DNA of 64,000 bases from Treponema sp. (lineage in GTDB: Bacteria > Spirochaetota > Spirochaetia > Treponematales > Breznakiellaceae), in assembly GCA_009781635.1 (NCBI GenBank), contig WQXU01000001.1:1-64000 (forward strand), in the 5' to 3' direction. The notes below the pieces were generated by a model. That model had not been told where the DNA came from. It saw only the letters and a list, made by a program, of their open reading frames with translations, and ran no database searches. Below, in pieces: positions 19,483 to 36,379 of this stretch (the first letter of the stretch is position 1; the number at the start of each line of letters is the position of its first letter). A program made the position numbers and the translations under genes.

Positions 19483-19968
19483 ATGTCAGATATAACAGAT
19501 ACAATTGAACCTGAAGAATTGTCGTCAGAAAGCGAAAACGGCGAGAAATTCCTTGTATTTTCAATTTTAGGAAAATCATACGCTTTCCCTTCCCGTTTAA
19601 TCGGAGAAATTGCCCTTTATGACATGGTATATCCCCTGCCTTTAATGCCCCCCTATGTGCTTGGCGTTGTAAATAGGTACTCTGTTCCATATGCGTTATT
19701 CGACATTGGCATTTTGTTTCATAACAAACAAAGCCCGCGCAGCAAGGTATTAATATTCAAGGATGAGGTTGATCATATTGCCTTTCTTATCGATGATGTG
19801 TCCGGCATTGCCGATATAAATCCGGATGAACTTTTTATTATGGAAAGAAGCGCAGGCTCAGGGGATCTTACTGATGCTGTTGCCGCTTCCTTTAACTGGA
19901 ACGGTAATGATGTTTTTATACTTGATGTTCACAGTATATTATCCCGTGTTTCCGGGGAAACGGTATAA
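19483..19968 (+). CDS. cheW: CheW-like coupling protein
   Basis: A 161-residue single-domain CheW. The core reads EKFLVFSILGKSYAFPSRLIGEIALYDMVYPLPLMPPYVLGVVNRYSVPYALFDIGILF, with the usual PYVLGVVN segment at the receptor/kinase contact, then VDHIAFLIDDVSGIADINPDEL. CheW docks receptors to CheA in the cytoplasmic array. AAGGCGG lies 9 bases upstream of the ATG. It opens an array of chemosensory genes, and the next gene begins 2 bases after its stop. It is diverged from standard motility CheW, which fits a non-flagellar system. Confidence 0.88.
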   Translation: MSDITDTIEPEELSSESENGEKFLVFSILGKSYAFPSRLIGEIALYDMVYPLPLMPPYVLGVVNRYSVPYALFDIGILFHNKQSPRSKVLIFKDEVDHIAFLIDDVSGIADINPDELFIMERSAGSGDLTDAVAASFNWNGNDVFILDVHSILSRVSGETV

Positions 19969-19970
19969 TA

Positions 19971-20402
19971 ATGAGAGTTTTTCTTTGTTCATATAACGGG
20001 TTTATGCTTGCAATTCCAATGGAGCTTGTTTCTTCCGTCTTTCTTTATACCGGCAGTGAAGAAAAGACAGTCAGCTATGATTCGCAAAAAAACAATACGC
20101 ATATTTTACTTCCCGTGCTGTTTAATTGTCCTTCCCTAAAAACACATCATGGTATTGTTCTTAAAGACTCATACTCCGGTGATAATGCAGCAGAAAATAA
20201 AATCATTTTACTTTCAACTGAGATTGAAAGCGAAAAAGAGATCCCTTCCGATATATTCTACCCTGTTCCGAAAGCTCTTGGCGCATTGCGTTTTTCATCT
20301 ATATTTAAAGGAATTGTTTTTGACAAGCAAACAGGCAGTCTTGTACTTCTGCTTAATCCTGAACAGCTGATTCAAAGCATAAAAAAGGAACTAATAACAT
20401 GA
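19971..20402 (+). CDS. Divergent second CheW-like protein
   Basis: A 143-residue protein whose start (MRVFLCSYNGFMLAIPMELVSSVFLY) and end (GIVFDKQTGSLVLLLNPEQLIQSI) match the first and last strands of a CheW fold. The middle is diverged, lacking a clear PxxLGVVN, so the call depends partly on its position between cheW and cheB. It may be a specialised adaptor for one of the unusual receptors. Its end overlaps the cheB start by 4 nt (ATGA). Confidence 0.6.
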   Translation: MRVFLCSYNGFMLAIPMELVSSVFLYTGSEEKTVSYDSQKNNTHILLPVLFNCPSLKTHHGIVLKDSYSGDNAAENKIILLSTEIESEKEIPSDIFYPVPKALGALRFSSIFKGIVFDKQTGSLVLLLNPEQLIQSIKKELIT

Positions 20403-21406
20403 TTAGAACATTAATTGTAGACGACAGCCCGCTGGTTCGTTCAATTTTAAGAAATTTTCTTGAAAGCGAAGGCTCATTCGAAATTATTGATGAGGCTGAG
20501 AACGGCCATGACGGTGTAAATAAGGCTGCGCAATTAAAGCCGGATTTAATTACAATGGATATCGACATGCCCCTGCTTAACGGACTTGAAGCTATCGTAG
20601 AGATAAGGAAATTTTCTTCTTGCGGCATTGTCGTAATAAGCACTCACGACACTGCAAAGATGGCCTATGACGCTACAGTGAAAGGAGCGCATGAGTTCTT
20701 TGCAAAAAATATTTTTACTTCTGATATGACAGATCGTCAAAGAAGTGACATTTTCAATACATTAAAACAGATAACAAAAATTAAAAAGTCTGTCTCTCGA
20801 AGCAGTGAAACTGTAATTCAGTCTTCTGCAGCGCCCAGAAAAATAAACTGCATAGTAATTGCATCTTCTACAGGCGGTCCGATGGCCCTCTGCAATTTAT
20901 GTTCAGGACTTCCCGCTGATTTTCCTGTTCCAATATTGCTTGTTCAGCATAATACTTCAGGATTCGACAGGGGTTTTGTACAATGGCTTGACGGATATTC
21001 TCAACTTAAGGTGCAGCTTATCGAAGAAGGGATTTATCCGTCCAAAGGGAGCATTTATGTAGCACCTACAGACAAGCATGTAATAATCGGTTTAAACGGT
21101 TTGGCTTATGATGACAGCGAACCTGTTAACAATCAGAAACCTGCCGCTGACATTTTATTTAAAAGCGCCGCAAAACATTTCGGCAGCTGTCTTGTTAGTG
21201 TTGTTCTTACCGGTATGGGAAGCGACGGCGCAGAGGGAACACGCCATGTAAAAAATTCCGGCGGCATTACAATAGCGCAGGATGAGGCTTCCTCCATGAT
21301 TTACGGCATGCCCCTCGCCGCATTTGAAACAGGCTGTGTTGATATGGTACTTCCTTTAAATGACATTGCCCATCGCCTTGTATCATTAACAGGAGGCCAT
21401 ACATAA
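20399..21406 (+). CDS. cheB: Chemotaxis response regulator methylesterase CheB
   Basis: A 335-residue two-domain enzyme that removes methyl groups from receptor glutamates. The receiver domain (about 1-120) has LIVDDSPLVRS and the phospho-Asp in LITMDIDMP. The esterase domain (about 145-335) has the triad: Ser in IASSTGGPMAL, His in LLVQHNTSGFD, Asp in GMGSDGAEGTRHVKNSGG. The closing EASSMIYGMPLAA motif is standard. Its receiver could be phosphorylated by the CheA hybrid downstream. AAGGA precedes the ATG, which overlaps the previous stop. Confidence 0.95.
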   Translation: MIRTLIVDDSPLVRSILRNFLESEGSFEIIDEAENGHDGVNKAAQLKPDLITMDIDMPLLNGLEAIVEIRKFSSCGIVVISTHDTAKMAYDATVKGAHEFFAKNIFTSDMTDRQRSDIFNTLKQITKIKKSVSRSSETVIQSSAAPRKINCIVIASSTGGPMALCNLCSGLPADFPVPILLVQHNTSGFDRGFVQWLDGYSQLKVQLIEEGIYPSKGSIYVAPTDKHVIIGLNGLAYDDSEPVNNQKPAADILFKSAAKHFGSCLVSVVLTGMGSDGAEGTRHVKNSGGITIAQDEASSMIYGMPLAAFETGCVDMVLPLNDIAHRLVSLTGGHT

Positions 21407-21408
21407 GA

Positions 21409-22914
21409 ATGTTTGATAAAGCATCTTCAGATAATAAGTCAGATGTTCCTGCAGATATACTGAGCTGTCCTGCTTTATTATTTTTATATTACAGGGTAGA
21501 ACAAATACTCGGCATAAAAGCAGGAATCGATGCTTTAAAAACACTCAATAGCTATCTTGAAAAAAATTGCGGCTCATCATTTATTGAAAATCCGGCCGCT
21601 TATGAAAATCTGCTTTCATCCCGTGAACAAATTTATGATATCTCCGGATTTCTTACCATAAATGAAACGTATTTTTTCAGGGAAGGCGCGCATTTTAACC
21701 TTCTTGTAAACCTTTTGCCCGGGTTTGCAGATCTTGGACGTCCTGTACAATTATGCTGCGCCGCTGTTTCCATAGGATGCGAAGCCTACAGTATTGCCAT
21801 GCTTCTTGATTATCATCAGAAAAAAGAAGGAGGCTTTGATTTTTTTATCGATGCTTTTGACATAAGCTCTTCTGCGATAGACACCGCAAAAAACGGACGT
21901 TACACTGCCAACACGCTTCGCAATGACGGCTCTTCTTGGAAACATATCCTTGACTCTTATCTTGTCAGCGACAACGGCGAATACTTTGTACCGCAAAGCA
22001 TCAAAAGAAAGGTAAAGTTTTTTTCGCATAACATCATGCGCGGGCTTGATAAACAATATGACATAATATTTTTTAGAAACTCTCTTATATATTTTACATC
22101 CAGAAACAGGCTTTTTGTCATTAATAATCTTGCAGAATCGCTGATTAATAACGGTCTTTTATTTTTGGGCGTCTCCGAAACATCATCTGTTAAACATCCG
22201 CTTTTAACAAACAGATATTTATCTGATGCTTTTTATTTTCAAAAAACAGGTTTTCCAAATGCAATCGATGTTTCTTCCGATGCTGATTTTTCTAATCAAA
22301 TCCTTAACATGACTCATACTCCTGCTGCAAAAAAGAATAATCCCCCGGCGTCTCAGGAAAAAAATGAAAAAACAGTTAAAAAAACTTCTCCAAAACAGGA
22401 TGATACTCCTGTAAAGTACGATGAAATATCAAATATATTGCATACAAACGAGGGAAAATCAAACGCTCTGGAAGTGCTTGATATACTTGAGAATGGAAAT
22501 CTTTCAGAACTTTCTAAAGAGAGTCTTGCAGCCTGCGTCATTTATATGCTTAACATGCAGGATTTTATAAATGCAGATAAAATTATTTCATTTCTGGAAA
22601 AAAGCGGCAGCGGAAGCCTCATCCGCTTTCTGCGCGCAGAATATTTTTTCCTTTGCGGTATTGCTGACGAAGCGGAAAAATATTATAATGAAGCTGCCGT
22701 AAAAGACAAATATTTCTGGCCTGCTTTCTACAGAATCGCAATTCTTGCCGCGGAAGGAAACCGCATCAGATTTGAATACAAAATAAAAAAAACAATTGAA
22801 AGTATTGATCTTTGCCAAAGCCCGGAAGCGGACGGCAAGTTTAATTATGAATGTTTTATGGGCGGGTTTTCCCCGGATTATTTCCGCAGAATTCTTGAAA
22901 AAAAATTAACATAA
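21409..22914 (+). CDS. cheR: Chemotaxis methyltransferase CheR with C-terminal extension
   Basis: A 501-residue protein: a CheR SAM-dependent glutamate methyltransferase (about 1-285) and a long tail. Motifs include INETYFFREGAHFNLL, CAAVSIGCEAYSIAMLL (SAM loop, where the usual CSTGEEPYS is altered), DAFDISSSAIDTAKNGRY, YDIIFFRNSLIYF and LFLGVSETSS. After a Lys/Pro-rich linker (about 300-345) comes a helical, TPR-like region (about 350-480). TPR-tailed CheR proteins are typical of alternative chemosensory pathways and may bind receptors or the output protein. The altered SAM loop should be checked for activity. Confidence 0.9.
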   Translation: MFDKASSDNKSDVPADILSCPALLFLYYRVEQILGIKAGIDALKTLNSYLEKNCGSSFIENPAAYENLLSSREQIYDISGFLTINETYFFREGAHFNLLVNLLPGFADLGRPVQLCCAAVSIGCEAYSIAMLLDYHQKKEGGFDFFIDAFDISSSAIDTAKNGRYTANTLRNDGSSWKHILDSYLVSDNGEYFVPQSIKRKVKFFSHNIMRGLDKQYDIIFFRNSLIYFTSRNRLFVINNLAESLINNGLLFLGVSETSSVKHPLLTNRYLSDAFYFQKTGFPNAIDVSSDADFSNQILNMTHTPAAKKNNPPASQEKNEKTVKKTSPKQDDTPVKYDEISNILHTNEGKSNALEVLDILENGNLSELSKESLAACVIYMLNMQDFINADKIISFLEKSGSGSLIRFLRAEYFFLCGIADEAEKYYNEAAVKDKYFWPAFYRIAILAAEGNRIRFEYKIKKTIESIDLCQSPEADGKFNYECFMGGFSPDYFRRILEKKLT

Positions 22915-22926
22915 AAGAGGTATTTC

Positions 22927-24927
22927 ATGAATTTTACCAATTTAAAAAATCTAAAAATAACAACTAAACTAACAATCAGCGCCTCGATTTTTCTTTTACC
23001 TTTGGGGATAATGCTGTTTTCAATTATATCCATGTCTGTTGCCTCCATTGATAAAGACAGACGTGAATTAAACGGTATTGAAGTTTTGCGCCCTGCAATG
23101 TCTTTAATGCAGGTTATTCCGCAATATGTCCGGCTCTCCGTTGACGGCACTCACGGTGATTTGGAATATGTCATTCAGAATACAGAGCAGCTTCTTTCGG
23201 AGTTAAAAAATAAATATGAACTTTATTATCTTCATGAGCATATTTTGGTTACTCCTGATTCGCTTTTGGATAACTGGAGGCATTTATCCGGTACTTCTAT
23301 CCGTGATACGGTTTTATGGGCTTACAGGCATATGATACTTGATTTGCACAGGCTTATTGTCAATGTAGGTGATATATCGGGGCTTATTACAGACAGCGAT
23401 ATTGAAAGCGCCTACCTTGTCGCCGCTGCCGTTCATGAACTTCCCCAGGCGCAGGAGAGAATGATTTTAATTGGAAACCTTTTAAGAACAATTGAAGACG
23501 GCGCCTTTACCCAAAGACGCAGAGCTGAACTTAACCGCCACCTTGAGCTTCTAGTCTACTCTGACAATGCAAGGATACAAAACAGGTTTAACGCAGCGGA
23601 ATCTTTAAGAATAAGAAATGCCGAAACGCTTGATTCATTTGAGATTCTTCTAAAAGCCTGTTTTGACAGAGTTGCATTTTTTGCAGAAACTGTTGATATT
23701 GCAATCAGTAATCCTGAAACAGAATCTGATACCCTTATATCGCTTCATGAATCCGCAAGCCATGCAAACAATGCCACTTTCCGTCTCCAGAATGCGGCGC
23801 TTGACCGTCTTGAAGCAATAATTTCCGCAAGAATTGAAACATACAGGATACATCTTTTCCTGTCTTTAATTGCCGCTTTTCTTGCAATGTTAACAGCGTT
23901 TATAATTATTTTTGCTACAACAATAAACATAAGAAAATCTACGGATGTTATTGGCATTGTATTCAATCAGCTTGATAAAAACGATCTCTCTGTAAAATTT
24001 GATTCTCTTTCAAGTGACGAGCTTGGAATGTTTTTAAAAGCCTTAAACGGATTTTTATTTAAACTAAAATCCGCTTTTTCTTCCATTAACACAAATACAT
24101 CCCTTGTTTCAACTTCAATGGTGGAGCTTTCATCTTCTGCAAAAGAAATGACAGCTACAGCCAATGAACAGTTTGCAAGCGTATCTGAAATTGTAAGCAC
24201 AATGGAAAACAACAAAGAGCTGTCCGCACAGGCTGCCGAAAAGACATCGGAAGTTGCAGACCTTGCAGGACAGACACAGGAATTAAGCCGCAGAGGCGCA
24301 TCTCTTCGCGATGTCAATGAAAACATGATGCTTGATATTCGCAATCAGAATGCAAAAATAATAGACATAATCAAGAATCTTGCAGAAATGCTTTTAAGAA
24401 TTGACGAGTCAATAAAGCTAATAGACACAATTGCAGATCATACAAAACTTATTGCATTTAATGCAGCCCTTGAAGCATCCTCGTCAGGGGAAGCAGGCAC
24501 TCGCTTTTCTGTAGTAGCAGGCGAAATACGCAGATTTGCAGATAACGTAGTTGAATCTGCATCAGAAATAAAGGAGAGAATTTCCGAACTGCAGGAAGAG
24601 TCCAATAACCTTCTTACAGAGGCAAATAACGGCTCCCGCATAATTGATTCAGGCTATAACAGAATGGTCGAACAAAAGGAAGTCTTTGAACATATCGTTG
24701 AAGTATCACAGAATGTCGCAATAAGATCCCAGCAGATATCAAGCTTCAGTAAACAGCAGGAATTTGCATCTTCCCAGGTTTTTACCGCATTAAAAGAAAT
24801 ATCTGCAGGTATAAATCAGTTTGTTTCTGCTACAACAATAACATCAGCAACAGTGGAAAAACTCAATAATATGTCAAGAGAATTAAAAGAAACGCTTGCA
24901 ATATACCACATAACGGACAGGGATTAA
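22927..24927 (+). CDS. Methyl-accepting chemoreceptor with helical periplasmic sensor
   Basis: A 666-residue membrane receptor. TM1 is at about 16-38 (LTISASIFLLPLGIMLFSIISM) and TM2 at about 300-325. Between them is an all-helical periplasmic sensor of about 260 residues starting RRELNGIEVLRPAMSLMQVIPQYVRLS, like helical-bundle/NIT-type sensors. The cytoplasmic signalling tip reads IADHTKLIAFNAALEASSSGEAGTRFSVVAGEIRRFADN, a diverged version of the usual DQTNLLALNAAIEAARAGE. Part of the cluster's receptor set; ligand unknown. GAGG lies before the ATG. Confidence 0.9.
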   Translation: MNFTNLKNLKITTKLTISASIFLLPLGIMLFSIISMSVASIDKDRRELNGIEVLRPAMSLMQVIPQYVRLSVDGTHGDLEYVIQNTEQLLSELKNKYELYYLHEHILVTPDSLLDNWRHLSGTSIRDTVLWAYRHMILDLHRLIVNVGDISGLITDSDIESAYLVAAAVHELPQAQERMILIGNLLRTIEDGAFTQRRRAELNRHLELLVYSDNARIQNRFNAAESLRIRNAETLDSFEILLKACFDRVAFFAETVDIAISNPETESDTLISLHESASHANNATFRLQNAALDRLEAIISARIETYRIHLFLSLIAAFLAMLTAFIIIFATTINIRKSTDVIGIVFNQLDKNDLSVKFDSLSSDELGMFLKALNGFLFKLKSAFSSINTNTSLVSTSMVELSSSAKEMTATANEQFASVSEIVSTMENNKELSAQAAEKTSEVADLAGQTQELSRRGASLRDVNENMMLDIRNQNAKIIDIIKNLAEMLLRIDESIKLIDTIADHTKLIAFNAALEASSSGEAGTRFSVVAGEIRRFADNVVESASEIKERISELQEESNNLLTEANNGSRIIDSGYNRMVEQKEVFEHIVEVSQNVAIRSQQISSFSKQQEFASSQVFTALKEISAGINQFVSATTITSATVEKLNNMSRELKETLAIYHITDRD

Positions 24928-24929
24928 TT

Positions 24930-26456
24930 ATGGCAGGTAATCATATTTCTTTAAGAACCAAAAAGGATGAATTTGAAGGTGAAAAACTAATCAACAAATT
25001 CAGATTTGTCATTGCTTTTTTGTATGTAGGAGTTGTAGTCCTCTTTGCAGTTTTAAGAAAGATAGAAGGACTTGAGCCCTTCCCGGTTTATGGATTTTTT
25101 CCCAACACTTTTTTTCTTCTTTTTTCCATTGTTCTTTTTTTCTATTTATTAAAAAGGAAAACCCTTTCTCCTGTATTTAAATATTTCTGCGTAATTATGG
25201 ATATGACAATCATAAGCGCAAGCATTTATATTGGATGCAGCTACCATCACCTTGATCCTCCTATTTCATATCTTTCAATCTGGGCGCTTTTTTACAGTGT
25301 GCTTATATTGCTTGGCGCATTCAGATACAGCACTCGCTGCGCTATATTTTCCGGTATTTACGCCGGCATCTGTTATCTTATAGTTATAATTTTAAGATCA
25401 AATGCACTTGATCTTCCATATTTTGTTGAATTTGAAGGTGCAATTATAAGCGTATCTTTTCCTACATTAAATGAATCTTTCCGTATTATATCAATGTTTA
25501 TAACAGGCATTATCACAGGAATAGCCTGCAAACGTCAGTTAAAATTATTCAGCGGAATTATAGATACACAGGCAGAAATGGCAAAGACAGCATCTATTAC
25601 TGTTGATAAAACCCACTCAATGGCGGAAACTATCCGGAAATCCACTGATGAAATATTTTTATCATCAAAAAATATTTATTCAATTGCAAATAATCAGGCT
25701 GCAAGTATTCAGGAAATTGAAGCTACCATGAATGAAAATACGCAGATTGCGGTTGAAATAACCGAAAAAACAACAAATGTTTCTTCGATTGCTTCACAGA
25801 TGGAAAATGATGTAAGAAACGGATTTTCCATACTTGAAAGAAATATCGGACAGCTGGAAGAAATAAAATTAAAAAATGACAATGTAATTTCCGGTATATT
25901 GGCTTTAGGAAATAAAATAGTAAAAATAAGAGACATAATTGAAACCATAAATGCAATAACAGACCAGACAAAGGTTATTGCATTTAACGCAGCCTTGGAA
26001 GCTGCAAGCGCCGGAGAACACGGAAAGCGTTTTTCGGTTGTTTCAAGCGAGGTTAACCGTCTTGCAGATGATATAGCAGCCCTGACAAAACAAATTCGCA
26101 AACAGGCGGATGACATAAAAGGCTCATCATCATCTCTTATTGTTTCCAGCAAAGAAAGCGCTGCAAATATCAAAGAAGGGAATAATCTTATAAAAGAACT
26201 TGAAAATATTTTCCGTGAAATACGCAGCGGCGCGGAAGTTGCCGCAATTAAGGCTCAGGTAATAACCATATCAAGTCATAAGCAGCAAAAATCAAGTGAA
26301 CATATAAATACAGCTATTATGGATATTTCCAGAGGCCTTTCCAGTTTTATTAATTCTACAAAAGTTGCAACATCTTCCGCCGAGGATCTTACCAAAACAA
26401 TGAATGAGCTGGGCAACCTTTTAACTGTTAGCGCAGATGAAAGGGAGGATGCATGA
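24930..26456 (+). CDS. MCP with multi-pass membrane sensor, paralogue 1
   Basis: A 508-residue receptor with no periplasmic domain. A short cytoplasmic N-terminus (DEFEGEKLINKFR) precedes roughly six membrane segments up to about 205, ending TGIITGIACKRQ. The methyl-accepting signalling domain (about 220-500) has the tip DQTKVIAFNAALEAASAGEHGKRFSVVSSEVNRLADD. Two further paralogues in the cluster share the whole architecture. Sensors embedded in the membrane often respond to membrane potential, quinone redox state or lipophilic ligands; here that is inference. It starts 2 bases after the preceding gene. Confidence 0.88.
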   Translation: MAGNHISLRTKKDEFEGEKLINKFRFVIAFLYVGVVVLFAVLRKIEGLEPFPVYGFFPNTFFLLFSIVLFFYLLKRKTLSPVFKYFCVIMDMTIISASIYIGCSYHHLDPPISYLSIWALFYSVLILLGAFRYSTRCAIFSGIYAGICYLIVIILRSNALDLPYFVEFEGAIISVSFPTLNESFRIISMFITGIITGIACKRQLKLFSGIIDTQAEMAKTASITVDKTHSMAETIRKSTDEIFLSSKNIYSIANNQAASIQEIEATMNENTQIAVEITEKTTNVSSIASQMENDVRNGFSILERNIGQLEEIKLKNDNVISGILALGNKIVKIRDIIETINAITDQTKVIAFNAALEAASAGEHGKRFSVVSSEVNRLADDIAALTKQIRKQADDIKGSSSSLIVSSKESAANIKEGNNLIKELENIFREIRSGAEVAAIKAQVITISSHKQQKSSEHINTAIMDISRGLSSFINSTKVATSSAEDLTKTMNELGNLLTVSADEREDA

Positions 26457-28003
26457 CTCAAAGAGAAGTAAAAGAAAAAATTAAATCAGATGAGTTTAAC
26501 GGAGAGAAGATTATAAGCCGTCTTCGAATAATACTTGCAATTATCTTTTTAGTCAGCGTACCTGTTGTTTCTTTTACAAGAGGCCTTGCAGGTGAGGGTT
26601 ATTTTCCGCCGCAGGCATATATTTGCTGCAGCGTATTTTTTATATATTCGCTTTTCATTCATATATATCTTTTAAAAAGAAAAAAAGTATCAGTTTTTTT
26701 TAAATATATATGCGTCATCTTTGATATAACAATACATTCTGCAAGTATCTGGATTGGCTGTACTTATCCGTTAATTGCGCCTGCCATTGTTTATCTTTCA
26801 ACCTGGGCACTGTTTTTTATGCTTCTTGTTATGGCCGGCGCATTCAGATACAGCGTTCCCTGCGCATATTTTTCCGGTATATTCGCAGGTTTCTGCTATC
26901 TATTTGTTGTTATAGTTAATGCCGGTAATCTTGATTTACCGTATTATTTTTTCATTGACGGCAATAAAATAAACGTCAGTTTTCCTGTTTTTAATGAATC
27001 ATTCAGGGTGATCGCGATGATTGTAACAGGAGCTATAACAGGCATTGCCTGTAAACGTCATTTTTCACTTTTTCACAATATGCTTGAAACGCAGTTAAAT
27101 GCATCTGACTCTGTTTCAAAAACAGTAGAACAAACGCGCAATATGGCATATTCAATTCAAAAATCTACAGATGAAATATTTCTTTCCTCCAAGAATGTTT
27201 TTTCCACAGCAAACAATCAGGCTGCGAGCATTCAGGAGATAGAAGCTACAATAAATGAAAATACGCAAATAGCTGTTGAAATTGCAGACAAGACATCCAG
27301 CGTTGCAACCATTGCTTCAAAAATGGAGCAGGATGTAATTAATGGTTTTTCCGTTCTTGAACGCAATGTTGGACAATTTGAAAATATTAAACTTAAAAAT
27401 GACGGTGTTATATCCGGCATTTTATCTTTGGGAAATAAAATCATAAATATAAGTGATATTGTAAAAAATATTAATACAATTACAGATCAGACAAAAGTAA
27501 TAGCATTTAACGCTGCCCTTGAAGCCGCAAGCGCCGGAGAAAAAGGAAAAAGATTCGCTGTTGTCGCAAGCGAAGTTAACAGACTTGCAGACGATGTTTC
27601 TTCCCTTACAAAACAGATACGTGAGCAGGTTGAGGAAATTCAGGACTCTTCATCCTCACTTATATTATCCAGCGAAGAGAGCGCAAATAAAATTAATGAA
27701 GGCAACAGTCTTATCAGAGAACTTGAAAATGTTTTCCGGGAAATAAGATCCGGTGCGGAAATTACATCAAATCAGGCGAAGACAATTACAGTATCAACCC
27801 AGAGACAGCTTAAATCCACTGAGCAGATCAATACCGCCATTACAGATATTTCCAAAGGCCTTGCAAACTTTATTCATTCAACAAGGGTTGCAACGTCCTC
27901 CGCCGAAGAGCTTTCGCATTTAACCGCCGAATTCGGCAATCTTTTTACAGAAGACACTCTTTCCCAGGATGAAATTAATCAACTTTTAAGCAAGAGGAAG
28001 TAA
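26453..28003 (+). CDS. MCP with multi-pass membrane sensor, paralogue 2, FliM-like tail
   Basis: A 516-residue paralogue of the preceding receptor: N-terminal DEFNGEKIISRLR, about six membrane segments to residue 205 (TGAITGIACKRH), then the signalling domain with tip DQTKVIAFNAALEAASAGEKGKRFAVVASEVNRLADD. It differs in its extreme C-terminus, LSQDEINQLLSKRK (503-516), which matches the CheY-binding peptide at the N-terminus of FliM (LSQxEIxxLL). It may tether a phosphorylated receiver domain. GGGAGG precedes the ATG, which overlaps the previous stop by 4 nt. Confidence 0.9.
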   Translation: MTQREVKEKIKSDEFNGEKIISRLRIILAIIFLVSVPVVSFTRGLAGEGYFPPQAYICCSVFFIYSLFIHIYLLKRKKVSVFFKYICVIFDITIHSASIWIGCTYPLIAPAIVYLSTWALFFMLLVMAGAFRYSVPCAYFSGIFAGFCYLFVVIVNAGNLDLPYYFFIDGNKINVSFPVFNESFRVIAMIVTGAITGIACKRHFSLFHNMLETQLNASDSVSKTVEQTRNMAYSIQKSTDEIFLSSKNVFSTANNQAASIQEIEATINENTQIAVEIADKTSSVATIASKMEQDVINGFSVLERNVGQFENIKLKNDGVISGILSLGNKIINISDIVKNINTITDQTKVIAFNAALEAASAGEKGKRFAVVASEVNRLADDVSSLTKQIREQVEEIQDSSSSLILSSEESANKINEGNSLIRELENVFREIRSGAEITSNQAKTITVSTQRQLKSTEQINTAITDISKGLANFIHSTRVATSSAEELSHLTAEFGNLFTEDTLSQDEINQLLSKRK

Positions 28004-28014
28004 CGGAATAAATT

Positions 28015-30249
28015 ATGGCAATAGACAAAGAAAAGTATATTGGTAAATACATTGATGAGGGAATAGACAATATTGCCCTTGTAGAAACTCTTGTTTTTGA
28101 CATCAAGGACGGCATCTCTGTAGAAGATGATCTTGCAACATTATTGCGCGCTCTTCATACCCTTAAAGGCTCTTCGCGAATGCTTAATTTCAGGAACATT
28201 GAAGAGTTATGTCATTCCCTTGAAAGTGTTTTTGTCGCATTAAAAGAACAGCGCATTGGTTTGTCTGAAAATGCCGTAAAATTGATATTATCCTCTCTTG
28301 ACTTGCTAAAAGACGGATTTAAAGTTTTATCAAAAACAAAAAATGATTCAATTGACATAAGCGAACATGTTAAAAACCTTTTTCTCCTTTCGTCAAACGA
28401 TGATTATAATCTGCCGAAAGGTGATTCATCCCAAAATACGGATACCGTTACTACCGTAATTTCAGAAAAAATAAAACCAGCAGAATCGGCGGCTGTTCAT
28501 GAAACTTCTTCTACCGACAAACGCAAGGACAAAAAATCAGAATCAATACGCCTTTCGCTTGATAAAATAGACGGTATAATTAAAAGCATCGCTTCTTTAC
28601 AAACCCTTGAAATCTCTGCAAAGAGTCTTTCCCAGAACAGCTCCGATTTAGTTAAAAACATGAAGGACTTTTCCGCATCCCTGAAGGAATTTAAAAAATT
28701 TGATGTTGCAACAACAGCCAATTTCAGAAAGCTTGAACGCCTGTGCGAACGTCTTAATTCTTCACTTAAAAATTTTGCAATAGACACAGGAACAAATATA
28801 AGATCTGCATATGACAGCGTTATATCATTGCGCACCCTTCCTGTCTCCACAATCTTTGACAGCTATCCGCGTTTTGTATATCAAATGTCACAGGAAATGG
28901 GAAAGAATGTCCTTCTTTCTATTGAAGGCAAGGAAAATGAAATTGACAAAAATATTATTGAATCCATGTCTGATGTATTTATGCATATGGTGCGCAACGC
29001 AATCGATCACGGCATTGAAACGCCGGAAGAACGTATTGCAGCCGGAAAAAACGAAGCCGGTAAACTTTCAATTGTTTGTTCCCGTGAAAGCGGCAGCATG
29101 AAAATTATTGTCTCTGATGACGGAAGGGGCATCGACATTGAAAAAATAAGGCAAAAGGCTGTAAGAGAAGGTTTTGTTGCAGAGGCAGCCGCTTCCGCTC
29201 TTTCTAAAGAAGATTTAACCAATCTTATTTTTCACAGCGGCTTTTCCACTTCCAGTAATGTAAGCAATGTTTCCGGAAGAGGCGTTGGAATGAATGTTGT
29301 CCGTGAAACTGTTGAATCTTTAAAGGGCAGCATTGTTGTAGAAAGCCATTTTAAGGAAGGCACTACTTTTACCATCATTGTTCCGCTTTCAATTGCCGCA
29401 CTTATGGGCTTTCCCATAGTTTGCAGCCAGATGAAATTTATAATACCTGCCAACTTTGTAGACAACATCCTTCTTTTAAGCAGCAATGAAATAATAACTG
29501 TTGTTGACAAGCCGGAAATAAAATATAATGATCGCATAATAAAACTTTACTATTTAAGCCAGATATTGCAGATTAAAACTGAATCCATTTTGTCATCCGA
29601 TATTCTTTTTATTGTTATAGTCAGATCCTATGATGATATTGCGGCTATTGCAGTTGACAACATAGACAGTATGAGATCTGTTATCCTTAAAACCATGCCC
29701 AAGTTTATGGAAACCATGCCCATTTTTTCCGGTATTGTCCTTAACGAAGATTATGAAATGGTCAGCGTTCTTCACATTCCAACCGTTATGAAAATGGCAA
29801 AGCGTATTAAGACAATCGACATTAAAAAACGGCATATAGAGTATGAAAAATTAAGAAAATCAATTTTAGTTGTCGATGATTCTCTTCCAATCCGTGAAAT
29901 AGAAAGTGAGATATTGCAGTCCGAGGGATATATTGTAAATACCGCAGCAGACGGAGCTTTGGCCCTAAAAGCCGCAAAGTCAAAGCACTACGATTTAATA
30001 TGCACAGATTTAAACATGCCTGTCATGGACGGTTTCATGCTTATAGAAAATCTTAAGAAAAATGAAGACCTTGCAAAGATACCGATTATTGTCATTTCTT
30101 CAATTGCCGATGAAGAAGAGCAAAAACGCGCATTCGCTTTAGGCGCGTCACGTTACATCATTAAAAATTCATTTAATAACCAGAATCTGCTTGAAGCTGT
30201 AAATGAGCTAATAGGTGATGTCCGCCATGGAGGTGATAATGAGCGATGA
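28015..30249 (+). CDS. CheA-type histidine kinase fused to a receiver domain
   Basis: A 744-residue hybrid kinase. Hpt domain at 1-110 with phospho-His48 in LLRALHTLKGSSRML; dimerisation helices at about 180-290; HATPase at about 300-460 with MVRNAIDHGIETPEER, DDGRGID and SGRGVGMNVVRETVESLKG; CheW-like domain at about 465-610; receiver domain at about 620-740 with SILVVDDSLPIRE and the phospho-Asp in LICTDLNMPVMDGF. The usual CheY-binding P2 domain is absent. It would phosphorylate its own receiver, CheB and probably the cyclase receiver encoded next. Its 3' end overlaps the cyclase gene by 11 bp. Confidence 0.93.
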   Translation: MAIDKEKYIGKYIDEGIDNIALVETLVFDIKDGISVEDDLATLLRALHTLKGSSRMLNFRNIEELCHSLESVFVALKEQRIGLSENAVKLILSSLDLLKDGFKVLSKTKNDSIDISEHVKNLFLLSSNDDYNLPKGDSSQNTDTVTTVISEKIKPAESAAVHETSSTDKRKDKKSESIRLSLDKIDGIIKSIASLQTLEISAKSLSQNSSDLVKNMKDFSASLKEFKKFDVATTANFRKLERLCERLNSSLKNFAIDTGTNIRSAYDSVISLRTLPVSTIFDSYPRFVYQMSQEMGKNVLLSIEGKENEIDKNIIESMSDVFMHMVRNAIDHGIETPEERIAAGKNEAGKLSIVCSRESGSMKIIVSDDGRGIDIEKIRQKAVREGFVAEAAASALSKEDLTNLIFHSGFSTSSNVSNVSGRGVGMNVVRETVESLKGSIVVESHFKEGTTFTIIVPLSIAALMGFPIVCSQMKFIIPANFVDNILLLSSNEIITVVDKPEIKYNDRIIKLYYLSQILQIKTESILSSDILFIVIVRSYDDIAAIAVDNIDSMRSVILKTMPKFMETMPIFSGIVLNEDYEMVSVLHIPTVMKMAKRIKTIDIKKRHIEYEKLRKSILVVDDSLPIREIESEILQSEGYIVNTAADGALALKAAKSKHYDLICTDLNMPVMDGFMLIENLKKNEDLAKIPIIVISSIADEEEQKRAFALGASRYIIKNSFNNQNLLEAVNELIGDVRHGGDNER

Positions 30250-32137
30250 GCAAAAACGCATCCTTGTGCTTGAGGATTCTGATATCTTCGCAGATATGCT
30301 CACAGGCGCATTTGAATCCAGTGATTATTTAATTAATAGGGCTGTAAACGGTTTTGAAGGAATTAAAATGGTTTATTCCTTTAAACCGCATCTAATAATA
30401 ACTGACATTGAAATGCCCCTTTTTAAGGGATATCAGGTTACGCGCCTTTTAAAATCACGGAAAAACACAAAGGCAATTCCAATTATCATGTTTACAGCGC
30501 TGGATGAATCAAAAGACAAGTTCTGGGGCAACCAGGCCGGAGCTGATTACTATATTGAAAAATCTCCTGATAATTTAAAGCATCTTGTTGAATCTGCGGA
30601 TAAAATATTGTCCCAATGCGCAGAAATTGATTTTAATGCAATAGAAAAAGAAGGAAAAAAAATAAACGATAACTCTATCATTGAAATAGTTAACAATCTT
30701 CTTGATACAAAGCTTTTCCAGACAACGATTATCGGACTTCTTTCCGATTTATCAAGCAAGATTCACTCCATGGATATGGTTGCAAGCGGCATTTTCGAAC
30801 TTCTTCAGAATATCTGTGAGGCTGAAGCTACAGCTCTAATGATTAAAAGAAGCAACCGTTTTCTATATATTTATACTGCAAATTACGGCGGGTTCACAAA
30901 AGAAATATTCGATGATTTTTCAAGCATATGCGTTTCTGATTTTAAATCGCTTTTTCCCGAATTTTCATTTTCATCAAAAATGACAAAAGATTTTTCCAAC
31001 GAAGGATCTAATAATAAAAATTTGATTTCTTATTTATCGCTTCCTTTAACCGTCGCTGGGGAGAATTTCGCCTCTATCCACATTGCAAATACCATTAATG
31101 AATATTTTTCTCCTTCTGTAATGGACAATATAAATGTATTTATAGCTTCGGCTGCTCCTGTTATCTCAAACGCGCTTTTAATGCATGAGATGACCCTTCT
31201 TCAAAAGAATACAAGGACTGCTTTTGCCCGTTATGTTCCTGCAGATGTCATGGATGATCTTATTAATGAAACATCAAAAAAAGTACAGATGAGCGAGACA
31301 AGAAATGTTTCTATATTATTCAGCGATATAAGGGATTTTACAGATATAGCAGAGACTTCCGATGCGCAAAATGTTGTTGATTTTTTAAATACCTATTTTG
31401 CAAAAATGGGAAGTGAAATAATTTCTGAAAACGGCCATATAGACAAATTTATAGGCGATGCAATCATGGCTGTCTTCGGTGCATTTCAGAATCTTGATAA
31501 CCCTCCTGCGAATGCAATCAGGGCTGCTGTTAAGATGCTGGCTGCAATTAACATGATTAATTCATCTCCCTTAAAACTTTCCATGAACAAGGTTGATATC
31601 GGTATTGGAATAAATTGCGGCGAATGTATTTTGGGAAACATTGGTTTTAAGAATAAAATGGATTTTACATTAATAGGCGATGCTGTAAATATCGCTTCCC
31701 GCCTTGAGAGCCTTACCAAGATTTATCATCATCCTCTTATTGTATCCGAAGCTGTATATGAAGTTACAAAAGACAATTTTCTTTTCCGCAAGATTGACGA
31801 TGTCCGCGTTAAGGGAAAGAAAAAATCAATTGGAATTTATGCCGTTTACTCCGGATTTTCAGGGGTTGACGGTAAGAAACTTCGTTCAGGCGATATCGCA
31901 GACATTATTTCCGTACCAGGCCTTTTAATAAACCGTAATACATTAGTTAATTATAACAAGGGTTTGCAGGTTTTTTATATGCGCGAGTGGAAACTGGCGG
32001 AAGAATATTTTATTAATGCGCTTGCAACAGAAAAAAATGATTTTCTTTCAAAATTATATCTTGAAAGGGCACGGGAATACGGACGCAATCCGCCTGATGA
32101 TGACTGGGACGGCGTAATAACTCTTTTAGAAAAATAA
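30239..32137 (+). CDS. Class III adenylate cyclase with receiver and GAF-like domains
   Basis: A 632-residue response regulator with cyclase output. Receiver domain at 1-125 with phospho-Asp56 in LIITDIEMP; GAF-like region at about 150-310; class III cyclase at about 350-540 with both metal aspartates (LFSDIRDF near 363 and HIDKFIGDAIMAVFG), the Lys in DKFIGD favouring ATP, and LIGDAVNIASRLE with the catalytic Asn and Arg. A short TPR-like tail ends the protein. It should make cAMP under CheA-hybrid control. The start at 30239 follows GGAGGTGATA and is preferred to upstream in-frame starts inside the kinase gene. Confidence 0.93.
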   Translation: MSDEQKRILVLEDSDIFADMLTGAFESSDYLINRAVNGFEGIKMVYSFKPHLIITDIEMPLFKGYQVTRLLKSRKNTKAIPIIMFTALDESKDKFWGNQAGADYYIEKSPDNLKHLVESADKILSQCAEIDFNAIEKEGKKINDNSIIEIVNNLLDTKLFQTTIIGLLSDLSSKIHSMDMVASGIFELLQNICEAEATALMIKRSNRFLYIYTANYGGFTKEIFDDFSSICVSDFKSLFPEFSFSSKMTKDFSNEGSNNKNLISYLSLPLTVAGENFASIHIANTINEYFSPSVMDNINVFIASAAPVISNALLMHEMTLLQKNTRTAFARYVPADVMDDLINETSKKVQMSETRNVSILFSDIRDFTDIAETSDAQNVVDFLNTYFAKMGSEIISENGHIDKFIGDAIMAVFGAFQNLDNPPANAIRAAVKMLAAINMINSSPLKLSMNKVDIGIGINCGECILGNIGFKNKMDFTLIGDAVNIASRLESLTKIYHHPLIVSEAVYEVTKDNFLFRKIDDVRVKGKKKSIGIYAVYSGFSGVDGKKLRSGDIADIISVPGLLINRNTLVNYNKGLQVFYMREWKLAEEYFINALATEKNDFLSKLYLERAREYGRNPPDDDWDGVITLLEK

Positions 32138-32154: not shown

Positions 32155-33669
32155 ATGACAGCTATTGAAATTAATGAAAAAATCACGCGTGATGAGTACT
32201 CAGGTGAAAGGCTTATAAATAAATTCCGCTTTGGTCTTGGAATTATATTTGTCGTAAGTATATTTTTGGTTTCGATACTAAGAAACCTTGACGGCCTTGC
32301 GCATTTTCCTTTACGTGCATACATTTTTCCGATTATTTTCTTTACTTACTCTATAGTTGTATATATTTATATCCGCAGCAGGCAAACGCTTCCTTCATAT
32401 TTTAAGTATTTATGTTCATTTCTTGATGCTGTTTTAATAACTGCCGCTATTTGGACAGGATGCACATATCCTGAACTCTCCCCTCCCATAATTTTTCTTT
32501 CCATACAGGCGCTTTTTTATATGGTTCTTATTATGGCAGGATCATTTCGATACAGCATACCCTGCGCGTATTTTTCAGGAATATTTTCAGGGCTTTGTTA
32601 TTTAATTATGGTTTATGCAAACGGACATGTTATTGATTTACCCTACTTTTTAAATTTAAAAGGGAATACTATTTCTTTTAGTTTTCCTTTATATAACGAG
32701 AATTTCCGCGTTTTAGCAATGATAATAGCAGGGGCAATTTCAGGTATGGCATGCAAAAGGCATCTTGTTCTTTTCAAAAATATGCTTTCATCCCAGGAAG
32801 ACGCGGCTCAAACATCAACAAATACAGTTGAACAAACGCGTTCAATGGCGAAAGTTATAAGAAAATCCACTGATGAAATATTCCTGTCTTCCAAGGATAT
32901 TTTTACAAATGCAAATAATCAGGCGGCCAGCATTCAGGAAATTGAAAGCACAATAAACGAAAACACGCAGATAGCAGGCGATATATCGGAAAAAACATCG
33001 AGCGTTGCAAACATAGCTTCAAAAATGGAAAACGATGTCATCCATGGTTTTTCTGTTCTGGAACGGAATGTCGATCAGCTTGAAGATATTAAAATGAAAA
33101 ACGACGGCGTTATTACAGGGATTATATCACTTGGAAATAAAATATTAAGAATACGCGACATAGTTAAAAACATTAATACAATTACGGATCAGACAAAGGT
33201 TATTGCATTTAACGCCGCGCTTGAAGCTGCAAGCGCCGGAGAAAGAGGCAAGCGTTTTGCGGTTGTCGCAAGCGAGGTAAACCGTCTTGCAGATGACATT
33301 GCATCCCTTACAAGGCAGATCCGCGAACAGGTTGAAGAGATTCAAAACTCTTCTTCGTCATTGATCATATCCAGTGAAGAAAGCGCCGACAAAATAACAG
33401 AAGGCAATACTTTAATTAAGGAACTTGAAAATATATTCCGCGAAATACGCAGCGGAGCCGAGATTACTTCAAATCAGGCGCAGACAATTACTGTTTTCTC
33501 GCAAAAGCAAAGAAAATCTTCGGAACACATAAATATCGCAATTGCTGATATTTCAAGGGGACTTACCAATTTTATTCAGTCAACAAGGGTTGCAACTTCA
33601 TCTGCGGAAGGACTTACAGAAATGATACAGGAACTTGACAAGCTCCTTACAGAGCAGAAACTGCAGTAA
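32155..33669 (+). CDS. MCP with multi-pass membrane sensor, paralogue 3
   Basis: A 504-residue third copy of the membrane-sensor receptor: DEYSGERLINKFR, about six membrane segments ending GAISGMACKRH near 205, then the signalling domain with tip DQTKVIAFNAALEAASAGERGKRFAVVASEVNRLADD. It lacks the FliM-like tail of paralogue 2 and ends ELDKLLTEQKLQ. GGGGGT precedes the ATG by about 7 bases. It lies after the cyclase and 32 bases before the first TonB-dependent receptor, bridging the signalling and transport halves of the array. Confidence 0.9.
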   Translation: MTAIEINEKITRDEYSGERLINKFRFGLGIIFVVSIFLVSILRNLDGLAHFPLRAYIFPIIFFTYSIVVYIYIRSRQTLPSYFKYLCSFLDAVLITAAIWTGCTYPELSPPIIFLSIQALFYMVLIMAGSFRYSIPCAYFSGIFSGLCYLIMVYANGHVIDLPYFLNLKGNTISFSFPLYNENFRVLAMIIAGAISGMACKRHLVLFKNMLSSQEDAAQTSTNTVEQTRSMAKVIRKSTDEIFLSSKDIFTNANNQAASIQEIESTINENTQIAGDISEKTSSVANIASKMENDVIHGFSVLERNVDQLEDIKMKNDGVITGIISLGNKILRIRDIVKNINTITDQTKVIAFNAALEAASAGERGKRFAVVASEVNRLADDIASLTRQIREQVEEIQNSSSSLIISSEESADKITEGNTLIKELENIFREIRSGAEITSNQAQTITVFSQKQRKSSEHINIAIADISRGLTNFIQSTRVATSSAEGLTEMIQELDKLLTEQKLQ

Positions 33670-33701
33670 AAGCAGTTATCTGATTCACAGGATTTTATTT
33701 G

Positions 33702-36317
33702 ATGCCTTTTGACTTCAAAAAAATATTTATAGTAATATTTTTATTTTTATTGGCCATTACATTATATTCCCGCGAAATTACTATTCTTGTTCTTGATATA
33801 GACCTTGAGATGCCTCTTGAAGGAGCTGTTATACGCACAAGAGAGGGAAATGAATATACCTGTGATGAAGACGGAAAAGCACTTATTCAAATCCCTGGTG
33901 ACAGGCAGACTGTTATCCATGCGGTTTATCCTGGTTATGAAACAGGAATTCTTGCTATACCTTTTGCGGGAAATCATTTTACCTTACATCTTCGTCTTTC
34001 GGGGATTTTACAGGGAAGGGAGCTTATAGTCGAAGCCTCAAGGCCGGGTTCAAGCGATACAAGAACTGGCCGCAGCATTGCGGTAAGCGAGAGGGAAATA
34101 ACTCAGACTGCGGAGATTGGCATTATTGAAGATGTCATGAGTACAATAAAACTTCTTCCCGGCGTTAACTACTCCGGTTTTTTTAATGCGCAGCCAAGCA
34201 TTAGAGGCGGGCATCCAGGAGATATGAGCGCGTCTTTAGACGGCTATTATATAAATAACCCGTATTTCTGGGGCGGTGGTTTTTCAATTTTTGATCCCAG
34301 AATGGTGCAAAGCGCCCAGCTTTCCCACGGTGTCTTTTCAAGCCGTTACGGCCATACAATTTCCGGCATGCTGGAAGTAACAACCAAAGAGCCTTCCTAT
34401 TCTGAAACCATGTTTGAACTTGGATTAAATTCAAGCTCCGCAAATTTCAATCTCTCCCTGCCATTGTCAGGCAGGGGTGGCATTCTTTTTATGGGCCGCA
34501 TTACCTATTACGATCCTGTTATTGCAGCCGCAAAGCAGGCGGCAAGTGTAATTCCCCAGTTGTCTTCTGTAGAGTTTATCCGAAAAGCTCCTTTTATAAG
34601 AGCTGCAACCGTTACGGGAAATTACAGGTTAAAGGACAACCTCGAAGTTTCTTCTACATTATTCTGGGGAATGGACGGGGTTAGCGTTTATTTTTTAAAC
34701 TCCAGCCGTTCCGCCTCACTTGAAAGCGATACGAGCGCAGATTTTGAATTTGCAAATTATCAGGGGTTTTTAACATCATCCCTTGCCTGGAATCCAAGAT
34801 CCAATATGCTTTTAAAGTTTACCACAGGAACCGGATATGAAAACAGAGTTATTGACGGCAGAATGTTATTTGAAATACATAATAAAAAAATCTCAACTAA
34901 ATTTATAGAAGATTATGATTACTTAAAATCTTTATTACTTGAAAATATTTTTAAGGAAACATATGATTTATATGATGACACTCTTATAGATCAATCAGAA
35001 TTTGCATACAATGCGCAGGGAAGAATTGATTTTGATATAGAATTAAATGATTACTTTTTATTTTCCGCAGGGCTTCAGGAGATGTTTAACTACTATTATA
35101 CATCAGGCCATCAAAAAGTAACAAACGATGTCTGGTTTCAGAGTCTTAGCGAATCTGAACAATTTGGAATTATGTCATTATTACATCCAACACCAATCGA
35201 TGTTATCCGTCAAAGCCTAAGAGTTGCAGTTCCCATAAATTATTATCCTTATACAAAGAATTATCTTTTTACAACATCAGGATACGCTTTAACTGAATAT
35301 AATTCCTACGGCAGCCGCCTTAAAGCGGAACTTGGACTTCGCCTTGATCATTTCCACTTAACAGGAGACGGATTTTCCTTATCAAGCGATCCTGTATTAA
35401 ACCCGAGGCTTAATCTTGATTACAACATCTTAAAAAATTCAGGTTTTCTGCAGTCATTGGACATATCCGCAGGGACAGGGCTTTTTTCATCCGTTAACGA
35501 TGTTGTCTTTTCCGCGGAAGAAAGATACAAGCTTAATTTTATAAAACCAAACCGAAGCTGGACATCCATTATAGGAATGAGGTTTGAGTTTCCGGAATCA
35601 ATAAGCCTTAATATCGAAGGATATTATAAATATATTTTTGATCGCATGTATATTCCAATGACAGTCACCCTTGACGATCTGGATATAAGACCTCACTTTG
35701 ACGGGGAAGGGATCGTTTGGGGTATAGACATGATGCTGCATAAACTGCAATCCCGTTTCTGGGACGGCTGGATTTCCTATTCCTATAACTGGGCAAAATA
35801 CCGCGATCCCCAGGGCATCAGATACGGAAGAGGCATTTCTGGCGGAAACAGGGGGGATTCATGGTATTTTCCGTCATTCCACAGATTCCATAATTTAAAT
35901 CTTATACTCAACTTAAAGCCTGTTCAAACCATCAATATATATTTCCGCTTCGGTATTGCTTCCGGTGTACTGCTGGCAAGACGGCTTGAAGATGGGCCTG
36001 TAAGTTACCCTGTATTAATCTTAGATGAAGAAAAAATTATTGAAAAATATGTCTGGACTTCTGTAATTGACGAGGCAAACCGCACTACCCCCTCATTTCC
36101 CTTTGACATAAAATTTTCAATTTTTGGAAGCAGCAGAAACGGAAAATCAAGATATGAAGTATATGCGGCTTTAGAGAATATCCTGGCTTTTGTTTATACC
36201 GCCCAGGGAAATACAAGTTTTAACCAGTACACAGGACAGGTCGACAGGGGCAGCAGCACTGCAACATATGACATACCAATGCCTATCCCCTCTTTTGGAT
36301 TTAAAATAAGTTATTAA
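33702..36317 (+). CDS. TonB-dependent outer-membrane receptor, paralogue 1
   Basis: A protein of 871 residues from ATG 33702 (an in-frame TTG precedes it). Signal peptide KKIFIVIFLFLLAITLYSR; a carboxypeptidase regulatory-like domain at about 24-105 (LEGAVIRTREGNEYTCDEDGKALIQIPG); a plug at about 110-235 (IEDVMSTIKLLPGV, AQPSIRGGHPGDMSASLDGYY, SRYGHTISGMLEV); and a beta-barrel ending in the aromatic GFKISY. RELIVEASRP may serve as TonB box. The substrate is unknown; glycans, peptides or metal chelates are possible. It is encoded with a close paralogue and its own ExbB-ExbD-ExbD-TonB motor. Confidence 0.93.
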   Translation: MPFDFKKIFIVIFLFLLAITLYSREITILVLDIDLEMPLEGAVIRTREGNEYTCDEDGKALIQIPGDRQTVIHAVYPGYETGILAIPFAGNHFTLHLRLSGILQGRELIVEASRPGSSDTRTGRSIAVSEREITQTAEIGIIEDVMSTIKLLPGVNYSGFFNAQPSIRGGHPGDMSASLDGYYINNPYFWGGGFSIFDPRMVQSAQLSHGVFSSRYGHTISGMLEVTTKEPSYSETMFELGLNSSSANFNLSLPLSGRGGILFMGRITYYDPVIAAAKQAASVIPQLSSVEFIRKAPFIRAATVTGNYRLKDNLEVSSTLFWGMDGVSVYFLNSSRSASLESDTSADFEFANYQGFLTSSLAWNPRSNMLLKFTTGTGYENRVIDGRMLFEIHNKKISTKFIEDYDYLKSLLLENIFKETYDLYDDTLIDQSEFAYNAQGRIDFDIELNDYFLFSAGLQEMFNYYYTSGHQKVTNDVWFQSLSESEQFGIMSLLHPTPIDVIRQSLRVAVPINYYPYTKNYLFTTSGYALTEYNSYGSRLKAELGLRLDHFHLTGDGFSLSSDPVLNPRLNLDYNILKNSGFLQSLDISAGTGLFSSVNDVVFSAEERYKLNFIKPNRSWTSIIGMRFEFPESISLNIEGYYKYIFDRMYIPMTVTLDDLDIRPHFDGEGIVWGIDMMLHKLQSRFWDGWISYSYNWAKYRDPQGIRYGRGISGGNRGDSWYFPSFHRFHNLNLILNLKPVQTINIYFRFGIASGVLLARRLEDGPVSYPVLILDEEKIIEKYVWTSVIDEANRTTPSFPFDIKFSIFGSSRNGKSRYEVYAALENILAFVYTAQGNTSFNQYTGQVDRGSSTATYDIPMPIPSFGFKISY

Positions 36318-36336
36318 AAAACAAGCAAGTGCAATT

Positions 36337-36372
36337 TTTCTCCTTTTATTTGTTGCATGTAATAAGGAGAAA
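36337..36372 (+). promoter_or_regulatory. Stem sequestering the ribosome-binding site of the second receptor gene
   Basis: TTTCTCCTT (36337-36345) pairs perfectly with AAGGAGAAA (36364-36372), which contains the AAGGAG ribosome-binding site of the next gene. The loop is 18 bases. The arm begins 20 bases after the stop of the first receptor gene, so ribosome passage, a small RNA, a protein or temperature could open it. Confidence 0.6.
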
Positions 36373-36379
36373 CATAATT

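Follow-up and report, generated by a model that had tools for sequence, protein, structure and literature searches.

A multi-pass membrane chemoreceptor, MCP3, encoded in a 64,000-nucleotide stretch of treponemal DNA (the window), ended in a peptide almost identical to the N-terminal segment with which the motor switch proteins FliM and FliN dock CheY. Our preferred, though tentative, explanation is that a FliM-type CheY-docking peptide was recently gained at the C terminus of the receptor and that it docks a phosphorylated stand-alone CheY (CheY~P). We infer that the tail binds its partner, that it does so in a phosphorylation-dependent manner, and that binding has an effect on signaling.

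The receptor, its tail, and the surrounding cluster

MCP3 is encoded in a chemosensory cluster with three further receptors (Table 1). The MCP signaling hairpin was present at residues 315 to 467 (PF00015, E = 2.3e-29), and MCPsignal was the only family above the Pfam cutoff in this protein, the FliM middle domain and FliMN_C being absent. The C terminus read LSQDEINQLLSKRK followed by TAA, with the last residue ending at position 28000. In longer form the end was ...SAEELSHLTAEFGNLFTEDTLSQDEINQLLSKRK, parsed as ...FGNLFTEDT-LSQDEINQLL-SKRK, and the tail taken as a peptide was TEDTLSQDEINQLLSKRK. It fit the consensus L-[ST]-Q-x-E-I-[DN]-x-L-L, with all ten motif positions intact and no decay. 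The FliM contact residue D12 was replaced by N, which is also found in the FliM of Thermotoga maritima. An NWETF-type pentapeptide (aromatic-x-x-aromatic-x) was absent from MCP3, whose last residues are LLSKRK, and 0 of 60 receptor C termini matched a simple aromatic pattern for such a pentapeptide. An AlphaFold2 model of MCP3 had a break at residues 499 to 504 and a separate short helix at 505 to 515, all at very low confidence (mean pLDDT of 50.5, with values near 45), which was insufficient to position the tail; this helix would fit a docking peptide, but we give the model little weight. As originally predicted, the paralogous receptors MCP2 and MCP4 lacked the tail, and so did MCP1. Using Pfam, no P2 CheY-docking domain was detected in the hybrid CheA of the cluster.

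Table 1. Positions in the window of the tail, its receptor, and neighboring chemosensory genes
Feature	Coordinates	Strand	Basis or remark
CheW	19483..19968	+	PF01584 match
CheW-like, second	start 19971		Assigned by eye
CheB methylesterase, receiver 20411-20734	20399..21406	+	Poor tail partner by contact residues
CheR methyltransferase with C-terminal extension	21409..22914	+	Inferred by eye from translation
MCP1, more distant receptor without tail	22927..24927	+	Reading frame, different C terminus
MCP2, paralogous receptor without tail	24930..26456	+	59% identity to MCP3
MCP3, multi-pass membrane chemoreceptor, 516 aa, bears tail	26453..28003	+	PF00015 match
FliM/FliN-type CheY-docking peptide LSQDEINQLL (by sequence)	27959..27988	+	Motif codons, profile score, likeness to 4iga_B
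SKRK, C-terminal to motif	27989..28000	+	Then stop TAA 28001-28003
Hybrid CheA: Hpt, HATPase, CheW, receiver 29863-30201	28015..30249	+	Candidate but poor tail partner
Receiver-adenylate/guanylate cyclase, receiver 30260-30577	30239..32137	+	Poor tail partner
MCP4, paralogous receptor without tail	32155..33669	+	66% identity to MCP3

The host is a treponeme, probably of termite-gut origin, and its closest named relative was Treponema sp. isolate Co191P3bin15. The cluster of that isolate (locus L043) had the same gene order minus MCP2, and its MCP3 ortholog ended in LTDKDETKNEGGV. The host genome held another cluster of this kind (L165, G000:C31:3000-13500) with CheW, CheB, CheR, two receptors, a hybrid CheA with a receiver, and a receiver-cyclase. 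Directly 3' of MCP4, at 33699 to 39037 on the plus strand, we noted by eye two adjacent large outer membrane receptor-like proteins with a carboxypeptidase-regulatory-like start and a TonB-dependent-receptor-like plug.

The match is not due to chance

The strict codon pattern L-S-Q-[DN]-E-I-[DN]-x-L-L occurred three times in the 2.77-Mb host genome, at the N terminus of fliM, at the N terminus of fliN, and in the MCP3 tail, and the reversed pattern gave no match there. The host FliM (MTEVLSQDEIDQLLTAI) and FliN (MSDGALSQDEIDALLAG) N termini were nearly identical to the tail. The earlier observation of a near-exact match to the FliM consensus was confirmed. A profile built from FliM/FliN N termini was scored over the six frames of the window (78,076 ten-residue words). 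The tail reached 25.5 bits, the runner-up was at 14.4 bits, and a random 10-mer attains the score of the tail with a probability of 3.1e-10 per word, corresponding to 2e-5 expected matches for the window and, over all six frames, 0.002 for the genome. Among 60 distinct receptor C termini, the 59 others scored 2.4 ± 3.0 bits, with a maximum of 9.2. In a PDB sequence search, the T. maritima FliM peptide 4iga_B (SDVLSQEEINQLIE; LSQEEINQLIE) aligned to tail residues EDTLSQDEINQLLS with an E value of 0.22, as expected at a length of 14 residues, and shared the N in place of D.

A looser pattern, in which position 4 was left free, also matched inside unrelated proteins, e.g., a DapA-like enzyme and an integrase; thus, agreement with the loose consensus would not convince on its own. 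These stray matches are what speaks for pure coincidence within a helical, charged C terminus, an explanation that is nevertheless very improbable given the per-word probability of the tail and its distance from the 59 other receptor ends. For practical purposes, chance is excluded.

Conservation and origin of the tail

The last 62 residues of MCP3 were searched against 394 genomes of the order. The query matched 66 places in 48 genomes, and only the match of the window itself reached the end of the query. One alignment of substantial similarity (genome G359) ran to query position 58 and ended in DPTLSIDEP, not in the motif, and two very weak alignments (28 to 31% identity) ran to position 59. 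The nearest relative of MCP3 (73% identical) lacked the motif, and all orthologs from the same genus had other, variable ends. The last residues common to the orthologs were LT or LLT, where the receptor helix ends, and C termini in the MCP3 family were hypervariable in both length and sequence. Two receptor orthologs from another genus (L183 and L184), ending in ...DPTLSIDEP and ...DPTLTIDET, were rejected as relatives of the tail; their likeness to TLSQDE spanned 5 to 6 residues and they scored at most 7.5 bits on the profile. An assembly artifact was also rejected, the tail lying between two genes arranged as in L043, where the receptor has a different end.

In total, the motif was found in 0 of about 65 other homologous receptor C termini of the order, an outcome that the original prediction had itself named as refuting it, here as regards conservation. 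The tail is private to one genome and, since the orthologs end otherwise, is a lineage-specific gain of the host. This leaves no conservation that would point to selection on the tail, which weighs against the preferred reading. It speaks against a feedback device of ancient, conserved origin but not against a recent gain. At the codon level, 24 of 30 nucleotides were identical between the tail and host fliM, where synonymous choice predicts 21.8 (P = 0.17). As this identity is no higher than predicted, the comparison speaks neither for nor against recent copying from host fliM or fliN.

The same observations bear on a neutral origin, in which a captured fliM- or fliN-like fragment, or drift in a hypervariable tail, produced a peptide without function in the receptor. 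The restriction of the tail to a single genome and the freedom of receptor tails to vary in length and sequence both favor this explanation. However, no motif position has decayed, the motif sits on a signaling protein, where a CheY-docking peptide makes sense, and nothing in the codon comparison pointed to a new copy that is still neutral. We consider a neutral graft unlikely, although it deserves serious consideration.

Candidate partners of the tail

The positions of Escherichia coli CheY that touch FliM are A90, I95, A99, Y106, V108, K119, and K122 (interaction table, PMC3774744). The stand-alone CheYs of the host were hydrophobic at positions 95 and 99 and aromatic at 106. The flagellar-type protein on contig C5 had G90, V95, L99, Y106, and V108; the CheYs on C2 (58102) and C9 (3311) had G90, I95, V99, Y106, and K119; and those on C10 and at C2:103781 had V95, L99, Y106, and K119. 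The C5 protein was closest to Borrelia burgdorferi CheY3 (3HZH, E = 2.5e-51) and also close to the T. maritima CheY crystallized with the FliM peptide (4IGA, E = 1.2e-27). A flagellar-type cheA-cheW-cheX group lacking cheY was located on C12 (L162), and the flagellar-type cheY stood alone on C5 (L135).

The receivers of the cluster itself, which the original prediction had named as partners, fared worse. The CheB receiver had D90, A95, T99, F106, A108, and Q119, that of the hybrid CheA had A90, Q95, F99, Y106, I108, and A119, and that of the cyclase had D90, K95, N99, Y106, E108, and S119; at positions 95, 99, and 108 these residues were unlike the FliM contacts of CheY, and K119 was present in none of the three. 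Because the cluster receivers have lost contact positions that the host CheYs keep, the likeliest partner of the tail, judged from these residues, would be a stand-alone CheY, with the C5 protein as the first candidate. Recruitment of a phosphorylated receiver of the own cluster would be favored by the shared operon and by the position of the tail, which is that of the NWETF tether, and the E. coli NWETF peptide does select activated CheB (PMC8609364). However, in addition to the unfavorable contacts, orthologous clusters have the same protein set and no tail, and we find this alternative improbable. Docking of a CheY from another chemosensory cluster (C2:58102, C9:3311, C10, or C2:103781) is slightly less probable still. 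These proteins have kept W58, I/V95, Y106, and K119 and in places match E. coli CheY more closely than the flagellar-type protein does, but the peptide resembles the FliM of the host and of T. maritima, whose partner is a C5-type CheY.

FliM-type peptides on other proteins of Treponematales

A wider motif search covered 200 genomes of the host family and 195 of its sister family. The reversed control of the looser pattern gave no match in any of the 200 host-family genomes and occasional single matches in the sister family. Besides FliM and FliN, the peptide occurred sporadically on other genes, mostly N-terminally and a few residues after the start, as in FliM. N-terminal copies were found on a zinc-ribbon-like protein of about 250 residues in several genera (L077, L080, L093, L102, and L109), a leucine-rich-repeat protein (L078), a DUF4116 repeat protein (L079), an HNH-like protein (L096), and a 67-residue protein (L088), and a TPR protein (L112) carried the peptide internally. 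In the sister family, the peptide was present on a FliM-like paralog (L177; PF02154, E = 4e-14, plus FliMN_C) and on an unrelated protein (L169). Two further proteins (L171 and L173) were FliM-like by eye; like L177, they occurred in addition to the normal FliM and had the peptide at or near the N terminus. L171 was also counted as unrelated. Chance matches to the loose pattern (L091, L092, L094, L101, L174, L175, L179, L181, and L182), comprising a DapA-like enzyme, an integrase, a large beta-rich protein, and a few short reading frames, were discarded and not counted as grafts.

Small proteins of about 70 to 105 residues at L076 and L106 had FliM-type peptides in tandem. L076 had two copies, LSRDEVDQLL and LSQDEINQLL (motif at about nucleotide 2455), and L106 had LTQDEINQLI and LTQDEINQLL with a weaker third (about nucleotide 189 of the reverse complement). 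By their sequences, these proteins look like CheY-binding baits or sponges.

An orphan small protein had the FliM-type peptide TEVLSQEEIDLLLTAIVSDDEKK at its extreme C terminus. It was found in two genera (L095:2009-2545, minus strand, and L097:1624-1848, plus strand) with 55% identity (E = 2.6e-15), and L098:133-315 (plus strand) may be a member from a third genus. As this protein keeps its C-terminal peptide in two genera, C-terminal placement is maintained elsewhere.

Recurring as it does on unrelated proteins across the order, the peptide behaves like a portable module, and the best reading of the MCP3 tail is as a recent case of this putative CheY-docking module. In Treponematales, the peptide has repeatedly come to sit on non-motor proteins, the chemoreceptor included; that CheY~P thereby has a network of partners beyond the flagellar motor is more speculative, and we put it forward only as a possibility.

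Comparison with known docking elements and a proposed mechanism

CheY-docking elements are known from signaling proteins, namely, the P2 domain of CheA and the C-terminal helix of CheZ, but these have other folds and other partners than the MCP3 tail and are not located on a receptor. With the N-terminal peptide of FliM and FliN (FliY) (EIDALL motif; 1F4V and 4IGA), the tail shares all key positions, L-S-Q-x-E-I-[DN]-x-L-L, and may share a short helix, as in the low-confidence model. In contrast to that peptide, it lies at the C terminus of a membrane receptor rather than the N terminus of a motor switch protein, and no second CheY-binding domain follows it. The NWETF-type pentapeptide that tethers CheR and CheB (PMC7390727 and PMC8609364) is likewise a short C-terminal receptor peptide; however, its sequence is unrelated, its known ligands are CheR and CheB and not CheY, and it usually follows a long flexible linker, whereas the MCP3 peptide is only a few residues past the predicted helix end. 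The C-terminal tail of archaeal CheF (PMC9126983) also recognizes activated CheY but differs in fold and in the CheY surface used and belongs to an archaellum adaptor.

For the preferred reading, docking of a stand-alone CheY~P, we propose that the last 12 to 15 residues of MCP3 would fold into a short helix and occupy the alpha4-beta5-alpha5 groove of the phosphorylated protein, as the FliM N terminus does. The docked CheY would most likely be the flagellar-type protein on C5. By analogy with the NWETF tether for activated CheB, the tail would keep CheY~P with the array, at the receptor C terminus and thus at the membrane-proximal end of the cytoplasmic hairpin, and would thereby tie the signal protein of the motor to a cyclase-linked array. 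At the motor, as summarized in PMC9126983, binding has two steps, in which the FliM N terminus raises the local CheY~P concentration at the switch and CheY~P then acts via the FliM middle domain and FliN; the FliM peptide alone binds E. coli CheY~P weakly (27 µM, cited in the same source). This weak affinity and the N in place of contact residue D12 count against the docking reading. The MCP3 tail could act as a sink for the signal of the motor, could let the cyclase-linked array sense the CheY~P level and so read out motor signaling, or could serve as a phosphotransfer docking site in place of a P2 domain, for which Pfam gave no match in the cluster CheA.

Significance

FliM-type peptides and receptor C-terminal tethers are each known, and their combination as a receptor tail, for which the original prediction knew of no description, was not found in the papers searched, a set that left most subscription journals outside its scope. 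To our knowledge, no receptor tether for a response regulator other than CheB is known. Going by sequence, the receptor could plausibly be linked to CheY in a functional way, the weak point being that the tail occurs in a single genome. As a messenger, CheY~P is generally regarded as having a single main target, the motor switch. If the link is real, a second sensory array could read, hold, or phosphorylate the messenger of the motor, and if the peptide-bearing proteins of treponemes bind CheY~P, CheY signaling in these bacteria would be a branching pathway.
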